The notes beneath the pieces are model-generated. The model was not told where the DNA came from and did no database searches. It saw only the letters and a list, made by a program, of their open reading frames with translations. From contig NC_089459.1 of assembly GCF_026210795.1 (NCBI RefSeq), positions 930,001 to 994,000 of the forward strand: a stretch of DNA of 64,000 bases, written 5' to 3'. Below are positions 1,669 through 61,221 of this stretch, in pieces; positions within the stretch are counted from its first letter, which is position 1, and the number at the start of each line of letters is the position of its first letter. The position numbers and the translations under genes are program-made. The DNA comes from Rhizophagus irregularis (taxonomy: Eukaryota; Glomeromycota; Glomeromycetes; Glomerales; Glomeraceae).

Positions 1669-3254
1669 ATGAAATTTAAACAATATAGTCTTCAAATTCT
1701 TGTGAATGGCTTTCCTTTGGAAGAATGTTGGGAACTTTTGAATGATGATAATCATGAATATCATGAATCCTCAAGCTATGTTCGTGATGAAATAACTCAA
1801 CTAAAATATGAAAGGTAACTTACTATTTATTCTTTTTTTTTTTACTTTTTTAATAAAAAAATATAAGATTATTTAATACTTTATTTTGAAATTACATATA
1901 TAGTGGAACGATTCATTACGCAGCGGTTAATGTAAACCATGGAACTCGTTTTTCTGTACGTTTTTCAGCTGAAGACGCGACAAAAGATCAACCAATAAAA
2001 GCTTACCTCTCAGTTGATGGAAATTGGGATTTTACATATTATCAACTTACTGATGAAAAATTTCGTAAAGAAAATGGATTTTGGAACAAAGATAGGAACA
2101 AAAAATATTATTTTAAATTTATTCCAACAACACAGTCAGCTTCATCTCCTGATTCTAAACTCATTAATAACACCACCAATATTGACAATAAAGAACTTAA
2201 TGATAATAAATTTTCTTTAAAAAAATCTGGTGGTCTCGGATGCGTTTCAGTGTATTTTTATCGTGCTAAATGGGTAAATCATTGTTGTAAAGTTCCAAAT
2301 TTTAATATTAATCAAACATTGACTAATAAAGATGTAGGCTTACTTGTTGGATTTGATGAAGAATTTCATGAACAAAATTATGATATACAAACTGGTATTG
2401 TTAACTTGAAAAGAATTTCTAAAAAACCCATTGCCGAATTACATTTACACTATAGAGATATTTCTTGTCTCATAGATCGAGGATTTGATTTTCCTAATTT
2501 GTCTACTCCAAAGAATGATATTGTTCGTGATGATTACTTTGAAGATATTTTTATTAAAGAAAGGACTGAATTAATTGAATCAGTACAGTCAAATATGATC
2601 TCTTCTAACTACTACTGTCAAACTGATCTAATTGATAAGGATGAAAGCAACTTAATTGAGGAAGGAAAATTAGATAAAATGTTTTCGAATGTAGAAAAAT
2701 CAAATAAGCGATCTTTTCACCTTGATGAAAAATGTCCATCCAAGAAAAGAGCAAAAGATAATTTCTACATTTTAAATACAACAGTACAAAGTGATAATAT
2801 CTTGGACGACAATTTCAAGGTTGGCACCTCACAATCTGTTGTATCGCAATTTAATAATGACGTTACTGAAGCCAAGTTAACAAAGAATGCAAATACTGAA
2901 GAAAAAAATTTGGAATCGAGGATTTCAAGCATGAATACATTACAACAAATGAACAGCTTTTCCAATGTAATTATTATTGAAGACTCTGATGATAATAATA
3001 TTCCATTATATATTGAGAACAATCCATTAATTGTATTGAGCGATAATGATTCTTTCAGTGAAGAGGTTAAAAGTTCCAAACCATTGCAGCAGGATCAGAT
3101 GATTTATCTTAGTGAAGAAGAATTGGTTAGAAAACCACATTTACGTAAGGTTAAAAAACGAAAAAATAAAAATTTGGCGCATCATAATTTTTCTAATAGT
3201 AGCAAGTTCAAAGTGACTAAGCCTGTTTATGATGTCATTATTTTGTCTGATTAA
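1669..3254 (+). CDS. DUF7918-like protein with C-terminal SUMO-interaction-like motifs
   Basis: Exons 1669..1814 and 1904..3254 give 498 residues. The intron has a GTAACT donor and a TATATAG acceptor and restores the frame (AG+T). The N-terminal ~250 residues fit the fungal DUF7918 pattern: an early 'VNGFPLEE' strand, a 'YLSVDG' strand, a 'GCVSVYFYRAKW' strand and a late 'LHYRDISCLIDRG' segment. This is recognition from memory, not a search. The C-terminal half is disordered and acidic, with basic nuclear-localisation-like clusters near residues 325-333 and 463-471. It has three hydrophobic cores followed by acidic/Ser residues: VIIIEDSD (~404), LIVLSDND (~424) and VIILSD as the last residues. 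These are classic SUMO-interacting motif shapes. A nuclear role linked to SUMOylated partners is inferred. Confidence 0.75.
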
Positions 3255-13789: not shown

Positions 13790-16047
13790 TTATTGTAATT
13801 TACAACCATCTACTGGAACTACTGGAACGGTCCCCCGGTTTATAATGTCTGTATTACGCGCATTGTAATCATCATCATAATTCTTGTTTAAACCTGTCAT
13901 GTAATAAAGAAAATGTCAATGCGCCATTGATAATTATGATATTGGTTTATAATTTATATATCACTTACTATCCAACGAAAATTTATAAGTTTGAGTAATA
14001 TATCTAGGATCTAAGGTCAAAAATGATATATTTAAATATATAACTTTTTTTTAAAAAAATAAATATATTAAAATATACTGTATACTGTACCTTCATTTTC
14101 TTTAAATTTTCTACATTCAACCACTTTAATGTAAAATATTTTTTAGAAATTATTACATATTATTAAGAGCTGTTACAATGTAAATAAACTTACGTGCTTT
14201 AAAATATAATATAAGAAATATATTTCAAAGTAAGTATTATTAACAAATGATATAGTTATTAAATAGTTTATAGTGTAAAATAAACTTACGTCGTCGTGCT
14301 ATAAATTATAATATAAAAATAGATTCCATGGTTAGTTAATTATTAGTAAATAAATATAGTTATTAAACAATTAAGTTGCTTACGTGGTCGTTCTTTAAAA
14401 TATAATTTAGGGAAGTTTTGATGTTAATAGATGAGATAATTATTAAATAATTAAGGTATAATGTAAATAAACTTACTTCTTTCAAACTTACTATTACGCG
14501 GTTCGAATTTTTCAGTGCTACAGCCTAATAAATTAAAAATAGTTAACCATTAGTAATAATTGTTATAATATACAATTTGTATACTAACGACAATATTCTT
14601 CTCGTTCTTCTCGTAGAGTATAATCATATGCCACGGTCATATATTCTAAAAAAAAAAAAAAATTCAATAGATATTAGACATTTAAATGTCTATACTTAAT
14701 AATATATACCTTGAGTACTTCCACTTATTACAGAATTAGAGTTAGAGTGATGAGGTGAAACCAGGTTATAATCTAATAAAAATCAAGTATTATTAGCATA
14801 TTAAATATATTAACGGTTTGTATATGGTTTAACTTGATGAACCTTTATTATTATCAACTATTTTACATGATTCCATCATTTCTTCAAATAATTTTGGTAA
14901 AAGAGAAGCATCAGGCCTTCCTGATGGTTCGGGATTCCAACATCGTTCCATAATATTAACATAAAAATCTGGCGTTCCTTTAACAATATCAGGTCTTAGC
15001 CCATCAAGAACTGAAAGCGCAAGTTCTGCATTATGATGATAATTTGAAAATGGGGGTTTCTTGGATGTCAATTCCCACATTATCATACTTATACTATACA
15101 CTTCTGATTGTTTTGTATATGGTTTACATCTTAGAACTTCAGGAGCTATGTAGGGCAAAACTCCTTGAATTTTATCTGAAACTTTTAATAGTAAAAATTA
15201 AAAATTTTAATATGAAAACACTATATTTTATTAAATTACATTATTTTTTATTGTACCTGTTTCTGAGTCAATGGGCTGACAAAGTCCAAAATCACTTATA
15301 AAAACTTTATCATCTTTATCTACCAAGATATTTTTACAATGGAAATCCTTGTGAACTAAATTTTTTTGATGAATTGAATTTAAAGCTTTTGAAATTTCAA
15401 TTAGAATCTTTGCTCTATTGGTCCAAGTTAATTTTGAAAAAAATTTACGAATATAATTTCGTAAATCTCCATGTTCCGCATGTTTTACTACCATAGCATA
15501 ATCATTTCCTTCTGGTGATTTTGTTATTCCATAAAATGGTATGACTCTTGGATTACGACATTTATGATGAATTTTAAACTAAATAATTTAAAAAAATTAA
15601 AAAATTAATTTCGAAAATTTAGCTGTTAGTATGAATTTTTTTTGTTACCTCATTTAGAATAAGATCATTGACACTATTAGAGTCTCTAATTGCTTTTAAA
15701 GCAATATTACTAGACGAAGCCAAAGCAATATTACGAGGTGAAACCGAAGCAATATTACTAGATGAAGTCAAAGACATGTTTAATGATAAATTCCATGTTC
15801 CAAAAAATACTTTTGAATTTCCTCCATCTGCTAAATATTTTATGTTTTCTAGAATTGAACGTGGTATCCATTCAATAAAATCATCACAATATTTTGATTT
15901 CTTTTGTGTTTCTTTAATAAATTTATCCAATTTATTATTTCCACTTGATTGTGAAGTAGAAAGAAATTGATTCCTACAAAATTGACCCGAATAATTTATT
16001 ATTTTCCGGTTACATTGCGTACAAGTAATATAATTTGAGGTTCCCAT
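13790..16047 (-). CDS. TKL-like protein kinase K1 with microexon-encoded C-terminal tail
   Basis: Twelve exons give 478 residues: 16047..15649, 15578..15257, 15181..14834, 14772..14710, 14645..14589, 14524..14477, 14392..14384 (9 nt), 14298..14290 (9 nt), 14196..14194 (3 nt), 14123..14091, 14010..13969, 13893..13790. The N-terminus has a C-x2-C-x11-C cluster (residues 9-24), perhaps metal-binding. Kinase motifs: GGNSK loop (75-79), Lys118, Glu133, HKDFHCKN (209-216, Arg of HRD replaced by Lys), DFG (229-231) and APE (253-255). The tail contains a Tyr/Glu-rich exon and the DPRY..QTY cassette. All 3' introns are phase 1, so the 9-, 9- and 3-nt exons insert whole codons. It probably acts as a cytosolic Ser/Thr or Tyr kinase; its substrate is unknown. 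Confidence 0.8.
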
Positions 16048-18626
16048 TTTTTGATAAAGATACAGGTAGTATTTAGTATTCGTTTGACTTACTTATATAC
16101 AGATCTCATAATTTAATTTAACGATGTAATTAGGATTTTGTTCAATCGAAATATATCCCATTTTTGCTAAATTTGATTAAATGATAATAATAAAATTTCT
16201 CTTATAACATTTTAAGGTAATTGATTACCTAGAAGATACTTTATAATTGTATGTGAAACAATTAAAACGGAAGTTAGTGAGAAATATTTATGATTTAAAT
16301 TAGGTGAAGCAGAAAAGTTTAGTACAGTATAATTAGATTATTATGAATGACAATTAAAAATAATCGAACATACGAATTTATTTGTTTATGAATCTATAAA
16401 GGAAATAATTTACCGAATAATTAAAACGCAGCATGCTGATCATTTTGAAGCTAACGTAAATTGATGTTTTATATCCATAAGGCGGCTGATTTTACATATA
16501 ATAATAATCAAAAAGTAGAATTTATGGGAAAAAATGGGCATAAAAAATTTTGGAAATAAAAACCTATTTACAAATGAGGTTTAACATACCACAAACTTTT
16601 TAAGAATGTTTCTTTCTTTTACGCTTGGTTATGGTAATTTTAGATGAACAACGTTAGACATTTTATTAATATATCCGAAAACTTACACTATTATTTTTCT
16701 TTTTTTTTGTATGATATTACGTATACTATTTATTATTGGATATTGAAAACCCCCTCTTGCATCGGAATAATAAAATCCTATTGTATAATTCTCGTATAAA
16801 ATTTTGATAAAAGCATAAAGGTCTGACAAAAGTAATTGTTTCCTTTTTTTCTCTCTTACATTATTTTATCAACGTAAATATCATAAAAATGAAAATGACC
16901 AAGACGACCAAAATCAGCCCATCTTGAGACACAATACTCCCAGATGTTATGGGTCGATTATTACTTTCTATAATGTCGATGATATATCATGATAGCTCAT
17001 AACCTGATATCCCATCATTTGACCTGTGATAGTCAGCTTCGTGATGAGCATGTCTATTTGCAAGGTCGAATGAGCGAAGTATCTGGATCAAATATAAAGG
17101 AGAACCAGTAGAAATCCATTTTCAAGGAGGAAACGTTAATACATTAAAGACAAATATTAAATGCCAACCTACCAAATAAATTAGCAACTTGTCATCAATA
17201 ATACATTATGAGCACATGGAAAAAAAGAAAGTTTATGTGTGGATAACATAATTGATGAAAAATTTGTAACGAGATATGACAAACCTCTTTATGTCGAGGT
17301 CGTTGATATTGGTAAGCTTTAAGTCATAATAACTAAACGTGATGCCCGCACTTTTTATACCACTGTTACGTTGGGATTTTATGTCTACCAGATGATGTGT
17401 CTTTTCTAGGAAACAAATGATTATAGAAAAAATAAGCAATTTAACTGTAAATTAATCGAGGAGAACGAGGATTTCCTAATTCGTAAATGTTATGGAGAAC
17501 TCATAAGATAGATTGATCAATGCTTATGAGCTTTACCATGATTTTCTTCAAATCAATTTAGTGAGCCAAATGCTTCTGAACTTTGAGGTAACCTCTTTGC
17601 AAAAGAATGGTGCGTTTAGAATTCATGAAAAAGGAGTGACATCAACAAAAATAGTGGATAAAAAATAGATAATCTATATTACAGTTGTTTGATACGCTAA
17701 ATGATGTACAGACAAATTCTTATATAATATACCTCAATCAAGAATATTTTGAAACAACCGATTCTTACTCTTTGGATTTATTTCAAGTTGCTGTATCAAA
17801 GATACACGATGATAATAGATTTCACTCGCGAGACCAATCCAGATAACCTGGAAGGTTCAAGAAGAATTGTAATTAAAGATTTGTGGTGGCGTTCCTCAAC
17901 TGTATGTTAATTTGTTTTGTACATTAATAACAATCTGCATTTACTAATTAGTATAAAGGTAAGACAAAAAAAGCATAAATAGTATATATTTTATTAGTTA
18001 TTTTTTAATGTGATGCTAACTTGCAGTTTTGTAGGTGGTTTGGAATCAAAAATTACGTGTGGAACGGTGATATCAAACTATATTTTGTGGTTCCCATCTG
18101 ACAAATTTGATGATTATCCTTGGCAAAGTTATAGGAGTCCCAACGCACGAGATTTTTTTATGATTCCACTAGTAGTGTCACTTATTTCAGGCGAAACCCA
18201 CAAAAGGAAATTATAGCTGGGTGCAGTAAAGTCTCATTCTGGACAAGTGTGGCAGGGAAATCAATAGTAATTTCGGAACTACCTACACTGCAGTGCAGTG
18301 TAAGGAGAAGTTCCAAAATTAGTGAGAGAAAAAAAAGTAAGAAAATTACAGAATAATATGATTTAATTATTCTTTAGGAATATAACAAATAATCTAAAGC
18401 AATATGTACTAAATATCAATTTCTACAAATAGAATGTAATGTGAAATAAGAGAATTATTATGTATTATGGCAAATCTGCTTTTGCGTGGTTTGGAGAGAT
18501 ATCAAATAATGAACAAAGTTGCTTACGTTAAAATTGTATCTACTATTAATAAAGTTTAACTTTATTTTTTAACTTGTGTATGTGGTGTACTGTTGGGATG
18601 TGTAACTGTGCATTGGAAATATTATT
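16048..18626. other. Long intergenic stretch without recognisable genes
   Basis: About 2.6 kb upstream of K1. Short ORFs (for example 18010-18216 plus, 17233-17439 minus) are not supported by any motif. A strong inverted repeat lies at 18275-18314. Some stretches (17700-18240) have better codon texture than the surroundings and could be remains of a gene, but I could not identify it. Confidence 0.4.
18275..18314. repeat. 40-bp inverted repeat (stem-loop)
   Basis: GGAACT at the left pairs with AGTTCC at the right. The centre is a perfect 19-bp odd palindrome, TACACTGCA-G-TGCAGTGTA (18284-18302). It could be a hairpin in RNA or the relic of a foldback element. No function is evident. Confidence 0.45.
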
Positions 18627-21184: not shown

Positions 21185-22039
21185 TTTATTCTATATAAAT
21201 ATATTATATATTTGATTTATTGTATTTGTATTAACGAAATTGATAAAAAAATTTGTTAAAAATTCTTGCTTTTTACTGATGATTTTATATGTTCTATCGG
21301 AATTATTAATTCACCTGATAAAGAAGATAATAGTAAAATTTAAAAATAAATGAACAAAAAATTTCCTAAAAAGATACGGAAAATATTTTATTTGTCAATA
21401 CAAATATGAGACTTCAATATGATTAGTGTACAAATGAATTTCATTTCATTATATTACCATTTTCAGAAATTACCGGATGTCAAATTGAAACAATGAATTA
21501 ATTTTTTTTGAAACATTTAAAATTAAAATCTAGAATTCAATATATTTACATTATACTAATTTAGTATTTATTAATGAAGAAAAAAGGTATCACAATGTAT
21601 GAATTTTTATTTTCAATGAAAATGTTATAAATCGTATAAATCGTGAAATATGCAACACGTGATCAAACTATACGCAGTATTTCAGAGTTCGTCATTGGTC
21701 CATTTTTGTAAAAACTGATCATAATTTATAAGCAATAATAAGTAACAATCTCCGCGTGATATCCGTTTCCACCCGTAAAGTCTACGGTCAAACTCCGATA
21801 TAACGATTATCGGAATCTATGAATATTGACCGACACGTCAATTTCGTGTACACGTAATACGTAATATAGATAATATAGACTCATAGTTAATTCAATAAAA
21901 GACTTTTTTTTTCCTCCTCTTCCTCTCTCGCTTCTCTTCCTCCCTCCTCCTTCTCTCCCCTCATCAAACTCATATATTTATTATACTCTTTTTTCTCTTT
22001 ACGTTTAACTGCTTACACGATATATTAAGGTAAATTTTT
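21185..22039. other. Intergenic with a pyrimidine-rich tract
   Basis: This separates the SCA7 gene (minus) from the tandem repeat to the right. Most of it is plain AT-rich sequence. The last 150 bp are a long C/T tract, annotated separately. Confidence 0.5.
21902..21964 (+). promoter_or_regulatory. C/T-rich tract, possible core promoter of the repeat transcript
   Basis: About 60 bases are almost pure pyrimidine (CTCCTC, TTCCTCCC and similar blocks), followed by AT-rich DNA and then the GC-richer tandem repeat at 22040. Long CT blocks just upstream of transcription starts are common in fungal promoters. The assignment is an inference from position only. Confidence 0.3.
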
Positions 22040-23125
22040 GGGTATTTTTGCTGGAGCAGCATGGTGTTATGCGAGGGTGGGAGCATAGCGTGCTTACTTT
22101 GTAAGCCTGTGAGTACCAGATTTCTGCAGTCTCACAGTAGAGCTGGTTGGGAGTTTTTGGAACGGTATAGTACTATGCGAGGGTTGGAGCATAGTCGCTT
22201 ACTTTTGGTAAGCTCGTGGGTACCAGCTTCTGCTGTAGTCCTGCGATAGGACCGAAGGTGAGTATAATTTCCTTGTTATTTTTTGGTTATTTTTTATTTT
22301 TATCATGATTTTTTTTATTTCTTTATTATTTTTAGCTTTGGGTATTTTATTGGAGCAGCATGATGTTATGCGTGGGTGGGAGCATAGCGTGCTTACTTTG
22401 TAAGCCTGTGAGTACCAGATTTTCTGCAGTCTCACAGTAGGGCTGGTTGGGAGTCTTTTGGAACGGTATAGTACTATGCGAGGGTTGGAGCATAGTCGCT
22501 TACTTTTTGGTAAGCTCGTGGGTACCAGCTTCTGCTGCAGTCCTGCGATAGGACCGAAGGTGAGTGTACTTTCCTTGTTATTTTTTAGTAAATTTTATCA
22601 TGATTTTTTTTATTTCTTTATTATTTTTAGCTTTGGGTATTTTATTGGAGCAGCATGATGTTATGCGAGGGTGGGAGCATAGCGTGCTTACTTTGTAAGC
22701 CTGTGAGTACCAGATTTTCTGCAGTCTCACAGTAGGGCTGGTTGGGAGTCTTTTGGAACGGTATAGTACTATGCGAGGGTTGGAGCATAGTCGCTTACTT
22801 TTTGGTAAGCTCGTGGGTACCAGCTTCTGCTGCAGTCCTGCGATAGGACCGAAGGTGAGTGTACTTTTTTTTTGTTTTTTTTTTAGTTATTTGTATTTTT
22901 TATTATGATTTTTTTTATTTCTTTATTATTTTTAGCTTTGGGTATTTTTGTTGGAGCAGCATGATGTTATGCATGGGCGGGAGCATAGCGTGCTTACTTT
23001 GTAAGCCTGTGAGTACCAGCTTTTGTTGTAGTCTCACAGTAGGGCTGGTTGGTTGTGGTACGGCATGGTGCTATGCGTAATTTTCATGGGAGGAGCATAG
23101 TGCGCTTCTTAGGAAGTCCCTTGTT
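22040..23125 (+). repeat. ~300-bp tandem repeat with exon/intron-like alternation and conserved hairpins
   Basis: There are three full copies and a partial fourth, with units starting near 22053, 22352, 22647 and 22953 (period about 295-306 bp). Each unit has a GC-richer block of about 220 bp and an AT-rich block of about 75 bp. The AT block begins with a canonical donor (CCGAAG|GTGAGT) and ends with a canonical acceptor (TATTTTTAG|CTTTGG). The GC block is an internal duplication of two related halves of about 150 bp. It contains hairpins such as CTTAC-TTT-GTAAG and CTGTGAG...CTCACAG. No frame stays open in all copies, so the block is probably noncoding. It could be a spliced structured RNA or a satellite built from a captured exon-intron unit. 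Confidence 0.7.
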
Positions 23126-33958: not shown

Positions 33959-36900
33959 TCAGATAATCGAACGATTATTAATTAATTCATTGTAAGCCTT
34001 GTTTAAATCTACAATAATATAAAGAAGGGCTTAAATAAGATTTTTATTTTCATCACTGATGAATTATGATAATTAAATAAATAAAATTGCTTACGGTCCA
34101 AAGAAAATGCATATGTTTGAGTATTATATCTAGGATCTAAAAAAGATATTTGTAAATAAATATGCACATCATCTTCACTGTAAATTATATCAATTAATAT
34201 ACTGACCCTCTGTTCGATTATTATCGACATTTTCCATTTGATATCGATATCCTATAATTTAATTGATATTATTAAACATATATGAATAGTATAAATTTGT
34301 ATGCTAATTAATTTAGTGAATTATTTGAAAAAAGAGATTGTTGAGTCTTACTTGATGATTTAGTAAGTTGAGATGTTTCGGGAAGTCGAGATCTTTGGAA
34401 AGGAAGAGGTAGAGGCGATGGGTATGCATTTGTTGAAGATGACTATTTCAAAATAAAGAAATATTTTAATTAACATTCTAAAAAAAAAAGAATGAATGAA
34501 TGAATGAATTTAATGTTAGTTACCACTGGAAGATATTGAGAAGAAACAGGTGATTGTATTCGATTAGAATCAAAGAATTGTGGTGGTCGAGAAAGTGTTG
34601 AATTAGGAGGATAAAAATTTGAAGAAGAACTAGGATGAGGAGGATAAACATTTGAAAATTTAGAAGAATAATTATTTGAATAATTAGGAGGGGGATAAAC
34701 ATTTGAATTCGCTTGAAGATGTTGAGGCATTCGGAAAAGTGGTGGGTATGCATTTGTTGATAACTATTTCAAAAGTAAAGAAGTATTTAAATTAACAACC
34801 CATTTTTTAAAAAAAATAAATAAATTTTAACATTAGTTACCACTGGAGGATATTGAGAAGATTGTTTTCGATTAGGATTAGAGAATTGTTGAAATTGACA
34901 ACCATATGAAGGAGTTGTAGAAGGGGGATAAACATTTGAAGGAGGATAAGCAGGTGGATATAAAGGTCCTTGTGCCGGTGGTTGGAGAGGTAAAGAACTA
35001 CTATAAATAGATTGATTTTCTACAAATTTCTGAGGATATTGATAAGATTGGTTTCGATCAGGACCAGAAAATTGTTGTTGTTGTTGTTGAAATTGTTGAA
35101 ATTGATAACCATCATTTGAAGGAGTTGTAGAAGGGGGATAAACATTTGAAGGAGGATAAGCAGGTGGAACAGACGAAAATCCTTGTGCCGGTGGTTGAAG
35201 AGGTAAAGAACTACTATAAATAGATTGATTTTCTACAAATTTCTGAGGATATTGAGAAGATTGGTTTCGATCAGGACCAGAAAATTGTTGTTGTTGTTGT
35301 TGAAATTGTTGAAATTGATAACCATCATTTGAAGGAGTTGTAGAAGGGGGATAAACATTTGAAGGAGGATAAGCAGGTGGAGCAGACGAAAATCCTTGTG
35401 CCGGTGGTTGAAGAGGTAAAGAACTACTATAAATAGATTGATTTTCTACAAATTTCTGAGGATATTGAGAAGATTGGTTTCGATCAGGACCAGAAAATTG
35501 TTGTTGTTGTTGTTGAAATTGTTGAAATTGATAACCATCATTTGAAGGAGTTGTAGAAGGGGGATAAACATTTGAAGGAGGATAAGCAGGTGGAGCAGAC
35601 GAAAATCCTTGTGCCGGTGGTTGAAGAGGTAAAGAACTACTATAAATAGATTGATTTTCTACAAATTTCTGAGGATATTGAGAAGATTGTGTTCGATTAG
35701 GTTGTTGTTGTTGTGGAAATTGATAACCATTATTTGAAGGAGTTGTAGAAGTAAGATAAACATTTGAAGGAGGATAAGCAGGTGGAGCAGACATAGGTAA
35801 AGAATTATTATGCGTAGGTTGTACAACTTTCTGAGGTGGAGGAGGTGGTGGTTGTGTCGCTTGAAAATATTGAGAATGTTGATTAGATGCTTGTAAAGGG
35901 AGAGGTGGAGGTGGAGGCCCTTGAAGAGTATGAGGTAACTCAAGAGAATATTCATATGCTTCTGTCCTATATTCTAGAGGATATTCATGTGCCTTTGTCT
36001 CAGAATATTCATGTACTTTTGCCTCATATTCTAAAGAATATTCATATGCTTTTGTTTCATATTCTAGAAAAAAATCAAACAAAAATGTAAATATTTAAAT
36101 AATTAATAATGTATATAATACATTCAAATTTTTATATTTTATGTGCCTTGTTTAGTAACTACAAAACTGTCTTCATTCGGCATCATTTTTTTTTCAGAAT
36201 TGAATGTTTTAGTTCCATGTTCTAAAAAAAATTTAAATAATTTTAGTATAAATATTTGATTAAATTAATATGTATATTGATTTGTATACCTGAATCAATA
36301 TATGATGATAATGAATTAAAAGCAACTATTGTTGATACTGTATTATCATCAGTCATTTTGCATAGTTCTATCATTTCTTCAAATATTTTTGGTAAAAGAG
36401 ATGCATCAGGCCTTTTTAATGGATCAGAATCCCAACATTGTTTCATAATATTAGTATAAAAATCTGGTGTCCCTTCAACAATATTAGGTCTCAATCCATC
36501 AAGAACTGAAAGTGCGAGTCCTACGTCATGGTGTTTATTTGAAAATGGAGGTTTATTTGATGTTAATTCCCACATAATCATACTAATACTATATACTTCC
36601 GATTGTTTTGTATACGGCTTATTTCTTAGAACTTCAGGAGCAATATAAGGTAAAACTCCCTGAATGCTATTTGAAACTTTAGTAGAGAAGATAATAACTT
36701 TATTAATCATATTCACGAAGTAAAAAGATTATATATACCGGTATATATTTGATTATTTACCCTTTTCCGAATCAATTGGTTGACAAAGCCCAAAATCACT
36801 TAAAAAAATTCTATCATCTTCATCTACTAAAATATTTTTACAATGAAAATCCTTATGAAGTATATTCATTTGATGTAGAGAATTTAAAGCTTTTGACAGT

Positions 36901-42034: not shown

Positions 42035-43249
42035 TTCCCTCTGTCATCAATTTACAGAGTTGCCACATCGAACGGGCATTCCCATGGTCGAACGAACGAA
42101 TGAACGAACGAACGAACAATTGAACAAACGAACAAATTATCAACAACATAATTAACAATAACATATAATAACAACATTCTTGGTTCACGACATAAATAGC
42201 GTTAGTAATATAAAACATCAAACGATATAAAATAAAATTTAACTTCTCCAAATTTTTCCCAAATTATATCCACTTTTACCTTTAATTTCAAACTTCGATA
42301 GCTCTCGCTACGAATTATTACTTTTCAACGGTGTATATTTAATTCTTCTTAAATTTCCATTTTATCCAATTAAAATTAATTAAGCGATCAATAATTAAAG
42401 TTTAGGGCGAACCTATTACCTTTAATTAATATTGTACTTCATTAACAAATAATTAAATGAAACTTATATTTTTATTGAGTTCTGTGGATGTGAACTATGG
42501 AATTACCTTGAATTCCGTTCTCTATATATACAATTTTTATGCTACTTTCTATTCTATCTATATACTATCTTTTACATTCTTTACATATTATCTTTGAACT
42601 ATCTTTCTAATATACTATCTATATTTTAAATACGCTATCTTTTAATATGCTATCTTATATATTATTTTATATGTTATCTTTTCTATTATTCAAATATTAC
42701 ATCGTAAAGAAATAATTTATAACCCATCTTTTATGGCTGTGCTATCTTTTCTTTAAAATAATCTTTCAAATATTATGTCGTAAAGATATAATTCATCTTT
42801 TGTGGCTGTGTTATCTTTTTATATATGTTCTTTTTAATATGTTATCTTTTATATTCCATCTTTTTACTATCCTTTCATATTATCTTTTATATTATTTTGT
42901 GTTCTTTAATCTTTCTGACATTATTTTATATGTTTTTTTAATCCACTTTATGTGTTTTGCTTATAATCTATCTTTTGTGGCTTATAATTATTCTTTCTTA
43001 TCGTTCTTATTGTTAAAGATCGCTAAGCCGCAAATGATCAACTCTATTTATCCTATTGGTTCTCTGTCAATCATTCAATAAATATTACATCATGTAGATC
43101 ATTACTCTTCCTAAATGTTTATCCTTTTCGGCTAATTATTTATCCATCCACGCCAATCCATGATTAATTTGTTCGTTCTTAATACTTGATAATTACATTT
43201 GGCGGTTGAATTTTATCATCTTTTCATGCTTGATATTCGGCCATTTACA
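42022..43249 (-). repeat. 3' LTR of the Gypsy element
   Basis: 1228 bp, beginning TGTAAA and ending ATCTCA on the element strand (TG...CA). Near-identical to 52386-53613. Contains many TATCTTT-type short motifs. Its outer end supplies an ATG in frame with the interrupted half-LINE ORF1. Confidence 0.95.
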
Positions 43250-52385: not shown

Positions 52386-53613
52386 TGAGATCCCCCAATT
52401 CCCTCTGTCATCAATTTACAGAGTTGCCACATCGAACGGGCATTCCCATGGTCGAACGAACGAATGAACGAACGAACGAACAATTGAACAAACGAACAAA
52501 TTATCAACAACATAATTAACAATAACATATAATAACAACATTCTTGGTTCACGACATAAATAGCGTTAGTAATATAAAACATCAAACGATATAAAATAAA
52601 ATTTAACTTCTCCAAATTTTTCCCAAATTATATCCACTTTTACCTTTAATTTCAAACTTTGATAGCTCTCGCTACGAATTATTACTTTTCAACGGTGTAT
52701 ATTTAATTCTTCTTAAATTTCCATTTTATCCAATTAAAATTAATTAAGCGATCAATAATTAAAGTTTAGGGCGAACCTATTACCTTTAATTAATATTGTA
52801 CTTCATTAACAAATAATTAAATGAAACTTATATTTTTATTGAGTTCTGTGGATGTGAACTATGGAATTACCTTGAATTCCGTTCTCTATATATACAATTT
52901 TTATGCTACTTTCTATTCTATCTATATACTATCTTTTACATTCTTTACATATTATCTTTGAACTATCTTTCTAATATACTATCTATATTTTAAATACGCT
53001 ATCTTTTAATATGCTATCTTATATATTATTTTATATGTTATCTTTTCTATTATTCAAATATTACATCGTAAAGAAATAATTTATAACCCATCTTTTATGG
53101 CTGTGCTATCTTTTCTTTAAAATAATCTTTCAAATATTATGTCGTAAAGATATAATTCATCTTTTGTGGCTGTGTTATCTTTTTATATATGTTCTTTTTA
53201 ATATGTTATCTTTTATATTCCATCTTTTTACTATCCTTTCATATTATCTTTTATATTATTTTGTGTTCTTTAATCTTTCCGACATTATTTTATATGTTCT
53301 TTTAATCCACTTTATGTGTTTTGCTTATAATCTATCTTTTGTGGCTTATAATTATTCTTTCTTATCGTTCTTATTGTTAAAGATCGCTAAGCCGCAAATG
53401 ATCGACTCTATTTATCCTATTGGTTCTCTGTCAATCATTCAATAAATATTACATCATGTAGATCATTACTCTTCCTAAATGTTTATCCTTTTCGGCTAAT
53501 TATTTATCCATCCACGCCAATCCATGATTAATTTGTTCGTTCTTAATACTTGATAATTACATTTGGCGGTTGAATTTTATCATCTTTTCATGCTTGATAT
53601 TCGGCCGTTTACA
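52386..53613 (-). repeat. 5' LTR of the Gypsy element
   Basis: 1228 bp, same boundaries and nearly same sequence as 42022-43249. It holds the element promoter. The downstream flank (53614-53617) carries the ACGC target duplication. Confidence 0.95.
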
Positions 53614-54573: not shown

Positions 54574-57500
54574 TTAAATTCGAAATTTCGCAAAATAATT
54601 ATATGATGAAATATCCAATAGTCTTGAACGATTATTAATCAAATCATTATAAACCTCATTCAAAGCTGTGATAAAGAAAAATAGATCAATGATTTAAATA
54701 ATTTTGATAATTAATTTATAAATCACTTACTGTCCAAAGAAAATTTATATGTTTGTGTAATATATCTAGGATCTAATGATAAAAATGATGTTACTTGATT
54801 ATTATTCAATTATTCACAGCTTTTTAAGAAAATTTATTATATTAAAACATATACCTTCTTTTTCATTATATCTATTATTGTTGTCATTACCTCCTTTATG
54901 AAAAATAAAACATTATGCCATTAATAAATACTTTTTTCCATAAAATAATATTTGGTCATCATATCAAATAATTTTAAATATTAAAATACAAACCAGTTTT
55001 CTGCTTCTTATCTAACAATTTAAAATAAATTAAAAAAAATTATGTAAACTTTAATTATTAAATAATTAAGATATAATATAAATGAACCTACTATTATCAT
55101 CGTCTATTTCAAATTTAAAATAATAAATAATAATTAGTTACAATTTAATAACTTGTTTTTATATATTAATTATTAAGTCTAACTTGCCAAAATCTAGAAA
55201 ATTATTAGCAAATTAAATTAAGAATTAGTTTTAATCATTAATTAAGTTATAATAAATATAATCTCACCGTTAATATCATCACCTATTTAAATTGTATAGT
55301 ATATATTTCAAAAATTAATAAAGTTTTGATATTTCGTGAAATTAATTATAAAAATCTAACTTACTCAATCTTTTTTCTAATAAATTAAAAATAATTATTC
55401 AATAACAATTAGTAGATAACTTTAATTATTCAACAACTAAATTATAATGTAAATAAACTTACGCCCTTTGAATGTAGTATAAAAGAAGTTTTTTATTAAA
55501 TATAAGTTAAAAGTTTTGATTTTTTATTATACTAATAGATATTTTATTAAATTATAATTTACTTACTTGAAGGTTCTATCAACCAAAATTTAGGATATAA
55601 TTAGCAAATTAATTAACTATTAATTATAATGTATTAAATAAACTTACCAACTATACAATATAAAATAAAAAATTATATTTCAAAAGTGTAAAGTTTTTGA
55701 TATTTAGTAAGTATTTAATAAATACTATTAGCAGATAAATCTAATAATTAAATAATGTAAATAGACTTACATTCTTTTAAATATAGTATACAAATGTTAA
55801 TTAGTAGTTATGTTAACAAATAATATAATTTAATAAGTTATAATTAAATTAACTTACGTGCTTAAAATATAGTACAAAAAAGCCCAAATAGTAGATATGT
55901 TAGCAAATAATTTAATTATGAAAATTTCTAAGTTTACACGGGGTGTTTGTACACGGGTCATATAAATATAATTTTTAATAGACTAATTTTTTGTTTTTTA
56001 ATTTGAAATTGAATGCTACCAACATTATACTCTTTTACTTTTTATTCTTATTATATTACAGATAAATATATGTATTTTCACCTGCTCTGCAAGTTTACTT
56101 AAGGCATTAAAGGAGGTTTTGAATGCCGTTTTTAATCTACTAATATGACCCGTGTTTAAACACCCCGTGTACAAATAGAAATTGCCTTTAATTATTAAAC
56201 GATAAATTATAATGTAATTTAATTTATTAAATAATAAGTTATGATGTAAATAAACTTACGCCCTATAAATATAATATAAAAAGGTTAAGATATTGATGTT
56301 AGTAGGTATGTAAGCAAAATAATTTAATTATTAAACAATAAGTTATAATGTAAATAAACTTACTAGCTATAAAATGTAATGTAAAAAGGTTAAAATATTG
56401 AAATTAATTATTAAACAATAAGTTATAACGTAACAAACTTACCACCTATAAAATAAAAAAAGTTAAAACATTGAAATTAATAGTTATATCAGCAAAATAA
56501 TTTAATTATTAAACAATGTTTCATAATGTAAATAAACTTACGAGCTATAAAATGTAATAAAATGTTAAAAATATCGATATTAGCATTTATATTAGCTAAT
56601 TTAATTATTAAACAATAAAAGCATGACATGAATTAACTTACAAACTACAAAATGTAAAAGATAAAAGTTAAAATATTGATTGCGTAGTTATATTAGCAAA
56701 TAATTTAATTATTAAACAATAAGTTATAATGTAAATAAACTTACAAACTATAAATGTAATATAAAAAGATTAAAATATTGAAATTAATTATTAAACAATA
56801 AGTTATATGTAACAAACTTACCACCTATAAAATAAAAAAAGTCAAACCATTGAAATTAATAGTTATATCAGCAAAATAATTTAATTATTAAACAATAAGT
56901 TATAATGTAAATAAACTTACGAGCTATAAAATGTAATATAAAAAGATTAAAATATTAAAATTAGTAGTTATATCAGCAAATAATTTAATTATTAAACAAT
57001 AAGCTATAATGTAAATGAACTTACGAGCTATAAAATGAATGAAAAAGGTTAAAATATTGATATTAGCATTTATATTAGCTAATTTAATTATTAAACAATA
57101 GCATGGTATAAATTAACTTACAAACTACAAACGTAGTATAAAAAAGCTTTTAAAATATCAATGCGTAGTTATATTAGCAAATAATTTAATTATTAACAAT
57201 AAGTTATAATGTAAATAAACTTACAAACTATAAAATGTAATATAAAAAAGACAAAATATTGAAATTAATTATTAAACAATAAGTTATAATGTATCAAACT
57301 TACCACCTATAAAATAAAAAACAAACTATCAAATTAATAGTTATATCAGCAAAATAATTTAATTATTAAACAATAAGTTATAGCAAAATAAACTTACGAG
57401 CTATAAATGTAATATAAAAAGATTAAAATATTAAAATTAGTATTATATCAGCAAAATAATTTAATTATTAAAAACAATAAGCTATAATGTAAACAACTTA

Positions 57501-60500
57501 CGAGCCTATAAAACAAATGTAAAAAGCGTTAAAATATTGATATTAGCATTTATATTAGCTAATTTAATTATTAAACAATAAGTTATGATATAAATTAACT
57601 TACAAACTACAAAACGAAGTATAAAAAAGTTAAAATATTGATGTTAGTAGTTATATTAGCAAATAATTTAATTATTAAACAATAAGTTATAATGTAAATA
57701 AACTTACAAACTATAAAATGTAATATAAAAAGATTAAAATATTGAAATTAATTATTAAACAATAAGTTATAATGTAACAAACTTACCACCTATAAAATAA
57801 AAAAAGTCAAACCATTGAAATTAATAGTTATATCAGCAAAATAATTTAATTATTAAACAATAAGTTATAAATGCAAATAAACTTACGAGCTATAAAATGT
57901 AATATAAAAAATATTAAAATATTAAAATTAGTAGTTATATCAGCAAAATAATTTAATTATTAAACAATAAGCTATAATAAATGAACTTACGAGCTATAAA
58001 ATGTAACGTAAAAAGGTTAAAATATTGATATTAGCATTTATATTAGCTAATTTAATTATTAAACAATAAGTTATGATATAAATTAACTTACAAACTACAA
58101 AATGTAGTATAAAAAAGTTAAAATATTGATGTTAGTAGTTATATTAGCAAATAATTTAATTATTAAACAATAAGTTATAATGTAAATAAACTTACAAACT
58201 ATAAAATATAATATAGAAAGGTTAAGATATTAATGTTAGTAGGTATGTTACAAATAATTTAATTATTAAACAATAAGTTATAATGTAAATAAACTTACCA
58301 GCTATAAAATATAGTATAAAAAAAGCCCAAATAGTAGGTATGTTAGCAAATAATTTAATTATTAAATAATCAGTTATAATGTAATAAACTTACATTCTAT
58401 AAAATGTAATATAATAAAGGTTAAAATATTGAAATTAGTAGTTATATTAGCAACTAATTTAATTATTAAACAATAAGTTATAATGTAAATAAACTTACGA
58501 GCTATAAAATGTAATATAATCAAGGTTAAGATATTGATGTTAGTAGATATGTTAGCAAATAATTTAATTATTAAACAATAAGTTATAATGTAAATAAACT
58601 TACAATCTATAAAATGTAATATAAAAAAGTTAAAATATTGAAATCAGTAATTATATTTGCAAATAATTTAAATTATTAACAATAAGTTATAATGTAAATA
58701 AACTTACTATCTATAAAATGTAATGTAAATAATATTGATGTTAGTAGGTTTGTTATCAAGTAATTTAATTATTAAGTTAGCAAATTATTAGACAATAAGT
58801 TATAATGTAAAATAAACTTACGTTCTAAATAAAAAAAGACAAAGTTTTTTATTAGCAGATTATTAAATAATAGGATTAAATATAAGCGAGGTAAAAGTTT
58901 CGATTTTTGATTATATTAATATTAAATTATGATATACTTACTTGTAGGAACTATAAACCAGATGGTTTAAAGTAATTATAATTAGCAAATAATTTTAAAT
59001 AATAAACTATAATATAAATAAACTTACATTCTTTAAAATGTATTACAAACAAAAAAGTTAGTAATTATGATTAGCAATGATTTAATTATTAAATAATAAG
59101 TTATAATGTAAATAAACTTACGTTCTATTAAGGGAGGGTTAGTATAATAATATTAATAATTATATCAGCAAATGATGTAATAATTAAATAATTAAATCAT
59201 AATATAAATAAAACTTACGTTCTAGTATAAAAATGTTAAAATATTGATGTTAGTAGTTATGTTAACCAATTAATGTTATTATTAAATAATAAGTTATAAT
59301 AAAAATAACTTACGCTCTTTTAAAATATAGTACAAGAATGTTAGTAGTTATATTAGTAAATGATTTAATTATCAAACAATAAGTTATAATATAATTTAAA
59401 CTTACGAACTATAAAATATCGTATGAAAAAAAGTTTTTTTATTAAACAGATCATTAGGTTATAATGTATTAATGTATTAAACAATTAAATTATAATATAC
59501 TTACCTGAAGGAACTATAAACCAGAAGTTTAGTTGCAAAATGATATAATTATTAAATGGTATGCTTTTTTATTTTCATATTTTAAAATTCTTGTATACTT
59601 ACCTTTAAGAGTATATTCATATGCTTTGGTCTCATAATCTAAAATTGCAAAATAAAATTAGTATTACATACGTTAAAGTGTCTATACTCAATAAGCACAG
59701 TATATATACATACTTGGTTGAAATCTGTTCTCATATGAATTTGTTGCAGACTGAGGTGATAATTCCATATCATCTACAGAATTGTTCATATTTATCATAA
59801 TTGCTTTTCCTTTATTAGAGTAACTGGTTGGTCCCATATTAAGACTTAAATCAAATGCTCTAGTATCATATCCTAAAAGAATACTAAAAATTAATAAAAA
59901 TATTTGCTTTAAATTATAATGCATTCAAATCTTTAATTTATACCTGGTTTATCACTATTATTGGTTACAAAACTAGATTGCACTTTTGATAAAATTGCAT
60001 TATTATCAGCCATTTTACATAGTTCCAACATTTCTTCAAATAATTTTGGTAAAAGGGAGGCATCAGGTCTTTCTAATGGATTAGAATTCCAACATTGTCT
60101 CATAAAATCAGCGTAAAAATCTGGTGTCCCTTCAACAATTTCAGGTCTCAGTCCATCAAGAATTGCAAGTGCAAGTCCTATATCATGATTATAACTATTT
60201 GAAAATGGAGGCTTCTTTGAAGCTAACTCCCACATTATCATGCTTAAACTATATACTTCCGATTGTTTTGTATATGGTTTACATGTTAGAACTTCAGGAG
60301 CGATATAAGGTAAAACTCCTTGAATGTTATCCGAAGCTTTTAGAAAAGCAAAATATAATTTTATTAATTATTTTATGAAACAAAAAATTGTTTTTCTTTA
60401 ATTTTTACCTATTTCAGAGTCAATTGGTTGACAAAGTCCAAAATCGCTTATAAAAATTCTATCACCTTCGTCTACTAAAATATTTTTACAATGGAAATCC

Positions 60501-61221
60501 TTATGAAGTAAATTCATTTGATGAATAGAATTTAAAGCTTTTGAAAGCTCAATAAGAATCTTTACTCTATCGGTCCAAGTTAATTTTGGAAAAAAATCAC
60601 AAATATAATTTCGTAGATCTCCATGTTTTGCATGTCTTATTACCATGGCGTATTCATTTCCTTTAGGTGCTTTTGTTATTCCATAGAATGGCACAACTCT
60701 TGGATTACGGCATTGATGGTGAATTTTAAGCTAAATAAATAACAATAATTAATTTCAGGAGAAAATATATTTCTATTGATTTTATTTTTTCTTACCTCGT
60801 TGAGGATATGATCATTAATGTTATCGGAATCATTAATGGCTTTTAAAGCAACTTTAAAAGATAATTGATTTGAAACTATTGAAGCCAAAGACATGTTTAA
60901 CATTAAATTCCAATTTCCAAAATAAACTTTGGAATTTCCTCCATTTGTTAAATATTTTACATTTTCTAAATTTGAATGTGGAATCCATTCGATAAAATCA
61001 TCACAATATTTTGAATTTAATTGAGTTTCATTAATAAATTCATCCAATTTAAAATTTCCACTTGTTTTGTCATTAAATTGTACGCTACGAATTTCACTAT
61101 ATTCATTTATTCGCGAAGAAGAAAGAAATTGTCTCCTACAAAGTTGATTTGGATAATTTATCACTTTTTGATTACATTGCATACAAATATTATTATATTC
61201 TAAACCTTCCAATAAATTCAT
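54574..61221 (-). CDS. TKL-like protein kinase K4 with a tail encoded by an array of single-codon exons
   Basis: Kinase exons: 61221..60796, 60730..60409, 60336..59944; tail exons 59872..59714 and 59603..59638. Then come 44 exons of 3-18 nt between 59513 and 55004, and the last three exons 54893..54855, 54772..54731 and 54665..54574. Motifs: C-x2-C N-terminus, GGNSK, Lys127, HKDFHCKN (218-225), DFG (238-240), APE. Every intron from exon 2 on is phase 1, and the joined reading stays open to TAA, giving about 568 residues if the one 4-nt exon (57505-57502) is read as 3 nt or skipped. The tail reads V-P-S-V-Q-Q-Q-Q..., then (V-F-S-P-R) repeats, then an acidic stretch and the DPRY cassette. Introns are ~95-110 nt with GTAAGT and TATAG ends, one GC-AG. 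Kinase function is clear; real splicing of the array is unproven. Confidence 0.7.
55004..59513 (-). repeat. Tandem intron-microexon array of K4
   Basis: Forty-four exon candidates lie between GTAAGT-type donors and TATAG/AAAG acceptors: 35 of 3 nt, one of 4 nt, three of 9 nt, and one each of 6, 15 and 18 nt plus two of 12 nt. Examples on the minus strand: TTC 59406-59408, AAC 59122-59124, CTC 58499-58501, TTT 58196-58198, GTG 57787-57789, CTA 56364-56366, GGC 56260-56262, CAC 55858-55860. Units are ~95-115 bp. Between 58198 and 56443 five units form a higher-order repeat of ~482 bp (TTT, TTT, CTC, CTC, GTG). Putative branch points (CTAAT/CTGAT) recur in each intron. Confidence 0.75.
55920..56186. 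mobile_element. 267-bp MITE with 9-bp target duplication in a K4 intron
   Basis: The ends are inverted repeats of about 38 bp (AATTTCTA..., ACACGGGGTGTTT, ACACGGGTCATAT). TTTAATTAT is duplicated at 55911-55919 and 56187-56195, inside a repeat unit whose uninterrupted copies have it once. A 9-bp duplication suggests a Mutator-like origin. There is no ORF. It lies within the intron between the GGC and CAC microexons. Confidence 0.8.

Follow-up and report, generated by a model that had tools for sequence, protein, structure and literature searches.

The window analyzed here is a stretch of 64,000 nt of the genome of Rhizophagus irregularis, a plant-symbiotic soil fungus that inhabits roots (NC_089459.1, positions 930,001 to 994,000; C31:930001-994000 below). 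Its minus strand carries a protein kinase gene, hereafter the window gene, in which an array of tiny exons separates the kinase exons from the 3' end. The model predicted for this gene consists of five conventional exons, the array, exons of 12, 15, 6, 12, 18, 39 and 42 nt, and a last exon (Table 1). From 59504 to 55462, GTAAGT donors recur on the minus strand every ~100 nt, and an AG stands 3 nt (35 cases), 4 nt (one case) or 9 nt (three cases) upstream of them. A sequence-only reading of this DNA had proposed an array of ~36 single-codon exons, and the 35 exons of 3 nt and one of 4 nt between 59513 and 55463 bear it out. All junctions are in phase 1 from exon 3 as far as the 4-nt exon, and every exon of the array and the tail other than the 4-nt exon (57505-57502) is a multiple of three. 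When the 4-nt exon is left out, the frame stays open to ...YNYFAKFRI and the stop at 54574; openness of the tail counts for less than openness of the array because the limits of the tail exons were fitted to the frame by eye. The array is also a tandem repeat of ~104 bp on which a higher-order period (483 bp) is superimposed. Neither this repeat nor the 261-bp insertion in one of the array introns (Table 1) is mentioned in the sequence-only reading. An array intron at ~C2:708255-708440 contains an insertion that looks, by eye, similar to the one listed in Table 1.

Exons flanking the arrays encode protein kinases, as judged by eye. The window gene is one of six or more sister kinases that form a tandem cluster on the minus strand of C31, located at ~16.1-13.8, 32.4-30.6, 37.6-33.7 and 61.2-54.6 kb of the window and from C31:1000046 and C31:1013034 downwards. 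The last of these, K4 (C31:1013034-1007999), lies ~17 kb upstream of the window gene and matches Pfam PF07714 and PF00069. The kinase exons of the window gene closely resemble those of K4, on which the Pfam scan was made. K4 has 35 exons, comprising five conventional exons, an array (one 9-nt, 23 three-nt and three 6-nt exons) and three 3' exons that resemble their counterparts in the window gene. No stop interrupts the frame of K4 between the ATG and the final stop codon, and all array introns are in phase 1. The exons of 9, 9 and 3 nt that had been proposed for the sister kinase K1 were found again by eye. The number of 3-nt exons varies widely among the genes examined, with 1 in K1, 23 in K4 and 35 in the window gene. 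The tail of another sister kinase contains a 213-bp proline-rich coding repeat (window 34884-35792), which follows a YETKAYEY stretch, the place where the window gene and K4 bear micro-exons.

Table 1. Positions, within the window, of the exons and repeats of the window gene and of the sister kinase K1
Feature	Position	Strand	Remarks
Window gene (array-bearing kinase gene)	54574..61221	-	ATG at 61221, stop at 54576-54574; predicted model of 52 exons
Exon 1	60796..61221	-	Window-gene exon model
Exon 2, kinase domain, start phase 0	60409..60730	-	Window-gene exon model
Exon 3, kinase domain, start phase 1	59944..60336	-	Window-gene exon model
Exon 4, start phase 1	59714..59872	-	Window-gene exon model
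Exon 5 (..YETKAYEYTLK+G), final conventional exon 5' of the array, end phase 1	59603..59638	-	Counterpart in K4
Array of 35 three-nt, one 4-nt and three 9-nt exons	55463..59513	-	Introns mostly 72-120 nt
First array exon, 9 nt, TTCCTTCAG	59505..59513	-	
9-nt array exon, TTCCTACAA	58942..58950	-	
4-nt array exon, GCTC	57502..57505	-	Sole array exon whose length is not divisible by three; inclusion shifts the frame
9-nt array exon, AACCTTCAA	55567..55575	-	
Post-array exons of 12, 15, 6, 12 and 18 nt	54994..55376	-	All multiples of three; limits set by eye for frame
39-nt 3' exon (..GGNDNNNRYNEKE)	54855..54893	-	Resembles the DDNDDNNNIFNEVE exon of K4
42-nt 3' exon (DPRYITQTYKFSLD)	54731..54772	-	Kept in sister genes
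Last exon (LNEVYNDLINNRSRLLDIS..stop)	54574..54665	-	Kept in sister genes
Higher-order tandem repeat, period 483 bp, ~4.8 copies	56404..58729		Blocks of ~five units of intron plus codon
Insertion in an array intron, 261 bp, resembling a miniature inverted-repeat transposable element	55923..56183		46-nt terminal inverted repeats, 85% complementary
Sister kinase K1	13800..16092	-	Exons of 9, 9 and 3 nt at 14392-14384, 14298-14290 and 14196-14194; by eye, outer limits approximate

Recurrence of the arrays in the genome

The array is not a peculiarity of one locus, as the sequence-only reading had argued from K1. A search of the genome (146,748,485 bases in 32 contigs) returned 2260 places where successive introns are exactly 3 nt apart (1081 on the forward and 1179 on the reverse strand), compared to 5 for a reversed-pattern control. 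Other sizes of the first exon were at the level of the control, with 12 places for 0-2 nt (control 12) and 69 for 4-24 nt (control 76), and spacing by chance was rejected. One subset pattern matched 67 places on 18 contigs, which were grouped by hand, with the positions typed manually, into 33 array clusters. Within the regions fetched around arrays, 155 pattern matches correspond to 344 adjacent pairs and 380 three-nt exons under a chain model. Extrapolation gives ~5,500 three-nt exons in the genome, a rough figure because the sampled regions were picked for arrays, by motif match. Other tandem sets of short introns, with different intron sequences and a first exon of another size than 3 nt, were seen at C6:3550471-3551606, C14:3876315-3876709, C29:494335-494744 and C21:1359784. 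These are possibly further micro-exon genes, or chance.

The arrays are associated with kinase genes. The first kinase exon from one of the array genes, used as the query against the genome, produced 150 matches, all 150 scored of 3531 candidates. At least 23 of the 33 array clusters are followed on their own strand, no more than 10 kb downstream, by one of these listed kinase exons; the window gene is among the other ten. Arrays are found on either side of the kinase domain: many genes have them 5' of it, and the genes of the C31 cluster 3' of it. Introner elements are related introns inserted in many unrelated genes. The array introns may be such elements, but the listed kinase exons beside the array clusters belong to one family, and spread by gene duplication is the simpler account. 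When the introns of the C31 cluster and those of other loci were compared as two families, the mean score was only slightly above that of shuffles (33.5, compared to 29.3, sd 6.2), such that the 3' and 5' arrays may or may not share an origin.

The 21 fetched chains consist of 409 exons, of which 380 are 3 nt long and all but 3 are multiples of three (406), under a model that scores 3-nt exons best and favours such lengths. Many consecutive tiny exons, mostly multiples of three, are the architecture of micro-exon genes. The introns between them average 94.8 nt (sd 11.6, range 55-148 nt), and, divided by three, these lengths fall in all three remainder classes (106, 127 and 121); indels are therefore tolerated in the introns. 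GTAAGT is the donor in 312 of 354 array introns. This hexamer is the full intronic match to U1, which may offset the absence of fixed exon bases. A branch-point-like motif, CTRAC or CTRAT, is present in 244 of the 354, a weaker motif in 100 and none in 10. The tiny exons are framed by an AG acceptor, a GT donor and a branch-point-like motif, as coding micro-exons between U2-type introns would be, but these counts are partly built in, since the chain finder accepts an exon only if it has an AG and a donor-like site, and scores it higher when a branch point is present. The acceptor and donor requirement also contributes to the contrast in heterozygosity within units, which is 0.55-0.74 at the three exon bases and 0-0.13 at the flanking AG and GTAAGT.

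Reading frame, stop codons and the one-nucleotide exon

Joining two 3-nt exons in phase 1 forms a codon from the final base of the first exon plus the two leading bases of the second. A T-ending exon is followed by a neighbor starting with AA or GA, which would create TAA or TGA, in only 1 of 641 pairs genome-wide, compared to 179 of 1619 pairs for exons with other endings. The expectation for these two stops, the ones covered by the genome-wide test, is 51 (Fisher p 3e-26), and the reversed control of the single count is 2. Stop avoidance is lost across a skipped exon: among the 102 pairs of this kind whose second exon starts with AA or GA, the first exon ends in T in 27, with 28.9 expected, and adjacent and skipped joins differ with p 2e-12. 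All p-values given for stops are nominal because tandem units share descent and are not independent. In 32 fetched chains with 477 three-nt exons, adjacent joins yield 1 stop in 430 pairs, compared to 22.6 expected. Joins to more distant exons yield 15 in 388 (20.3 expected) for the second exon on, 17 in 347 (18.2) for the third, 20 in 307 (16.1) for the fourth, 17 in 270 (14.3) for the fifth, 16 in 235 (12.6) for the sixth, 10 in 201 (10.9) for the seventh and 9 in 169 (9.4) for the eighth. The difference between adjacent joins and joins to the second exon on holds for all fetched pairs (p 1e-4). When only distinct pairs per locus are counted, there is 1 stop in 352 adjacent pairs and 65 in 1116 for skips of 2-5 (p 2e-7).

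The depletion concerns stop codons. TAA was seen once in the fetched arrays with 10.3 expected, TAG not at all with 9.5 expected, and TGA not at all with 2.8 expected. Other codons starting with T were near or above expectation (TAT 28 and 31.1, TCT 16 and 13.2, TGG 29 and 15.5, TTT 46 and 31.4, seen and expected respectively), such that depletion among T-starting codons whose expected number exceeds a few is limited to the stops. GGG is also low among the non-stop codons listed (6, with 16.6 expected). A splicing preference acting at the junctions would hardly single out the three stops. Phase-1 codon usage scored better than each of 500 shuffles of the exon order, and better than each of 1000 when stops were excluded. 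Together with stop avoidance, this indicates a coding constraint on the exon sequence in a defined phase. Reading in phase 2 was rejected, with 56 stops in 344 pairs and 48.6 in 359 pairs for shuffles. The flanking frames rule out phase 0, and codon usage also speaks against it (-4.15, compared to -3.90); the shuffle test does not exclude it, because phase-0 stops would fall within single exons.

It has been reported that a single 3-nt exon elsewhere is alternative (PMC7392893). The 3-nt exons of the arrays could likewise be included alternatively, and since any subset of them keeps the frame, one gene could supply a combinatorial diversity of peptides. If skipping were frequent, stops at skip-joins should have been purged as well, and neither the fetched arrays (the 15 stops among 388 joins to the second exon on) nor the genome-wide counts given above provide clear evidence of this. 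Such diversity is unlikely, although skipping at a low level is compatible with the data. A second possibility is that the sites are recursive-splicing ratchet points for a long intron, and that the 3 nt are not retained in the mRNA. A GTAAGT-like donor does follow directly after each 3-nt exon, and sequential removal is likely under any reading. However, exons of 0-2 nt are at the level of the control (12 and 12), and discarded pieces of 3 nt would bear no codon signal, yet a signal was found. It is therefore extremely unlikely that the sites serve as ratchets.

The phases at the ends of the arrays provide further evidence. The exons upstream of the 5' arrays C2b and C1b end in phase 1 (read by eye), whereas the kinase exon 3' of the 5' arrays needs phase 2 according to conserved protein sequence. 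The two are reconciled because a 1-nt exon, A (AG/A/GTAAG), lies between them. A TTG exon followed by a 1-nt exon occurs at 95 places in the genome, with 0 in the control, and at least 85 of the 95 sit 59-386 bp upstream of a listed kinase exon. The 1-nt exon was found at 11 of 11 fetched array ends, picked from kinase exons beside arrays; three of these ends are not among the 95. The exon that precedes it is TTG at ten of the ends (TTATTG at the other, as modelled), and the one before that is CTT at eight. The C1b gene stays open across 28 three-nt exons, through the 1-nt exon and on into the kinase domain, reading VSDWFDQKKNHLENHRYHLDRWFEINPFEFGKSGN... (with the G of the upstream exon supplied).

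Array, phase, frame, gene family and the restriction of stop avoidance to neighbors are read from the sequence. Given that stop avoidance between neighbors only, matching phases and a recurring 1-nt exon all favor exons, it is very probable that the arrays consist of one-codon coding exons, with introns of ~95 nt spliced out successively and every 3-nt exon joined to its immediate neighbor and translated.

Public gene models and points against the exon reading

Several observations weigh against one-codon coding exons. Spliced array peptides were compared with protein records (75, 8 and 77 matches), and none of the 82 records inspected by eye carries an array peptide. One spliced protein piece, from an array gene other than the window gene, matched a record of R. 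irregularis DAOM 197198 at 100% over 67% of its length. The inspected models start after the array, stop at it, skip it or are array-free relatives, and some of them start at a methionine 3' of the array or are marked partial. To our knowledge, 3-nt exons are below what standard aligners place. The inspected models omit the arrays although long-read RNA was used for annotation of the assembly. In the annotation paper, Nanopore RNA reads were mapped for expression with introns capped at 3000 (PMC10234402). The cap alone would not hide introns of 95 nt. The exact 1-nt pattern is missing upstream of 65 of the 150 listed kinase exons. A lone adjacent pair making a stop in phase 1 exists genome-wide, at C4:4281150-4281252, in a gene that could be dead or spliced differently. 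Reading from end to end hits a stop in 4 of 21 fetched chains: in the window gene after the 4-nt exon, in C1d and C1c at exons modelled as 5 and 12 nt, and in C21 at GTT/AAA. The exon limits in C1d and C1c may have been misplaced by the simple chain model.

Three models, P0040, P0084 and P0115, also count against it, since they join the two sides of a 5' array with no linker or with two to five residues, as skipping would. P0115, from Rhizophagus clarus, links KESK to KFGKSEN by only five residues and may show the 5' array in a short or ancestral state. These joins are consistent with the array being a minisatellite in one large intron, with the flanking exons joined directly and the internal sites unused. 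The array is a tandem repeat, and skipping the whole of it keeps the frame of the window gene because the exons on both sides are in phase 1. However, unused sites would not yield stop avoidance confined to neighboring pairs of 3-nt exons, and in 5' arrays the direct join of phase 1 to phase 2 shifts the frame, as in C2b and C1b with their upstream exons read by eye. One large intron is thus very improbable. The sequence-only reading had offered exons, ratchet points or one large intron; stop avoidance between neighbors only, the phases and the 1-nt exon favor the first and speak against the other two.

The 4-nt exon of the window gene shifts the frame when included, and stops appear. The sequence-only reading had described an uninterrupted reading in phase 1; the phase stands, and the reading is open without the 4-nt exon, but it is interrupted with it. 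This exon is a real problem for that one gene and was underweighted. It agrees with another explanation, in which retention of the first array intron cuts the kinase mRNA short and the array, in the window gene if nowhere else, is decaying 3' sequence. Moreover, the public model of K4 (P0076, OCT59_022319) runs into the first array intron and ends with ..YTLEGQYTEF. On the other hand, the 3' exons are kept in frame among sister genes, K4 is open across the whole array, and the 5' arrays would be unexplained, the kinase domain being downstream there. Truncation by intron retention is therefore quite unlikely, and one-codon coding exons are still preferred.

Other repeats occur elsewhere in the window. 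Two identical sets of tandem-repeat rows, at 42089-42895 and 52453-53259, are 10,364 bp apart, and an integrase-like open frame (44000-43329, recognized by eye) lies between them. Together they probably represent a long terminal repeat retrotransposon within the kinase cluster. A tandem repeat of 295 bp with 3.4 copies is present at 22037-23052.

Proposed mechanism and known systems

Each unit of intron plus 3-nt exon would add one amino acid to a variable segment beside the protein kinase domain. In the tandem cluster on C31, the family of the window gene, the segment would be in the C-terminal tail. In the larger set of sister genes it would be immediately N-terminal of the kinase domain and closed by the 1-nt exon, which would convert phase 1 to phase 2. 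We infer that splicing of the arrays occurs, sequentially and mostly to completion, with introns removed one after another along the array. Successive removal is likely because an exon of 3 nt hardly lets both neighboring introns be recognized together, and Guo and Liu reason similarly about an exon of 1 nt (PMC4674806). Whole codons would be gained or lost, with the frame unbroken, by unequal exchange between introns that are nearly identical. The block repeats of the window array and the differing numbers of exons in sister genes fit growth and shrinkage of arrays by such exchange.

A role of the variable segment in docking or recognition beside the kinase domain is a guess. A bolder proposal is that the recognition segments of many kinases are built strictly of one codon per exon, that the ~5,500 exons are joined constitutively in order and that exchange is the engine of diversification; this is possible, and it is put forward tentatively. 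If the exon reading is correct, exchange between introns could insert, delete and shuffle single amino acids or blocks of them without damage to the frame, and segments of proteins could change codon by codon. Annotation of tiny exons is difficult, and they are usually known one at a time. Many kinase models of R. irregularis would be cut off exactly where the proteins differ most. The arrays would also be a natural test of the minimum exon size for the spliceosome, and of whether intron definition with sequential removal suffices.

No literature on such arrays in Rhizophagus was found in open-license PMC, searched by titles and abstract openings, and no precedent was found there for tens of consecutive one-codon exons in many genes with closure by a 1-nt exon. 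Single 3-nt exons, a few 1-nt exons and the micro-exon genes of schistosomes are known already. The micro-exon genes of Schistosoma resemble the arrays in that much of the coding sequence is distributed over numerous tiny exons whose lengths are mostly divisible by three (PMC10526429). The exons of those genes are mostly 15 bp (6-81 bp according to the text of the paper, 3-81 bp according to its abstract) and number 10-20 per gene; introns of 0.1-5 kb separate them, and the genes encode secreted products (PMC10526429). In contrast, tens of consecutive exons in R. irregularis are exactly 3 nt long (380 of 409 exons in the fetched chains), with introns of 55-148 nt, beside a kinase domain. Drosophila homothorax shares an exon of one codon's length, but this is one alternative 3-nt exon in one gene (PMC7392893).

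Exons of 1 nt that are needed for the frame are described for Arabidopsis APC11 (PMC4674806) and Fusarium CYP621A (PMC12940212). The latter is called the second example of a 1-nt exon and the first in a fungal gene (PMC12940212), and a placozoan mitochondrial case has also been published (PMC5436844). Unlike those of APC11 and CYP621A, the predicted 1-nt exon of R. irregularis would close an array of 3-nt exons and recurs at 95 places. Recursive splicing, discussed for tiny exons (PMC4674806), is similar in its stepwise removal that recreates a donor site. It differs from the scheme proposed for R. irregularis, in which 3 nt would be kept at each step; zero-length exons of the type AG/GT, the mark of a recursive splice site, fall in the 0-2 nt class that is as frequent as in its control.

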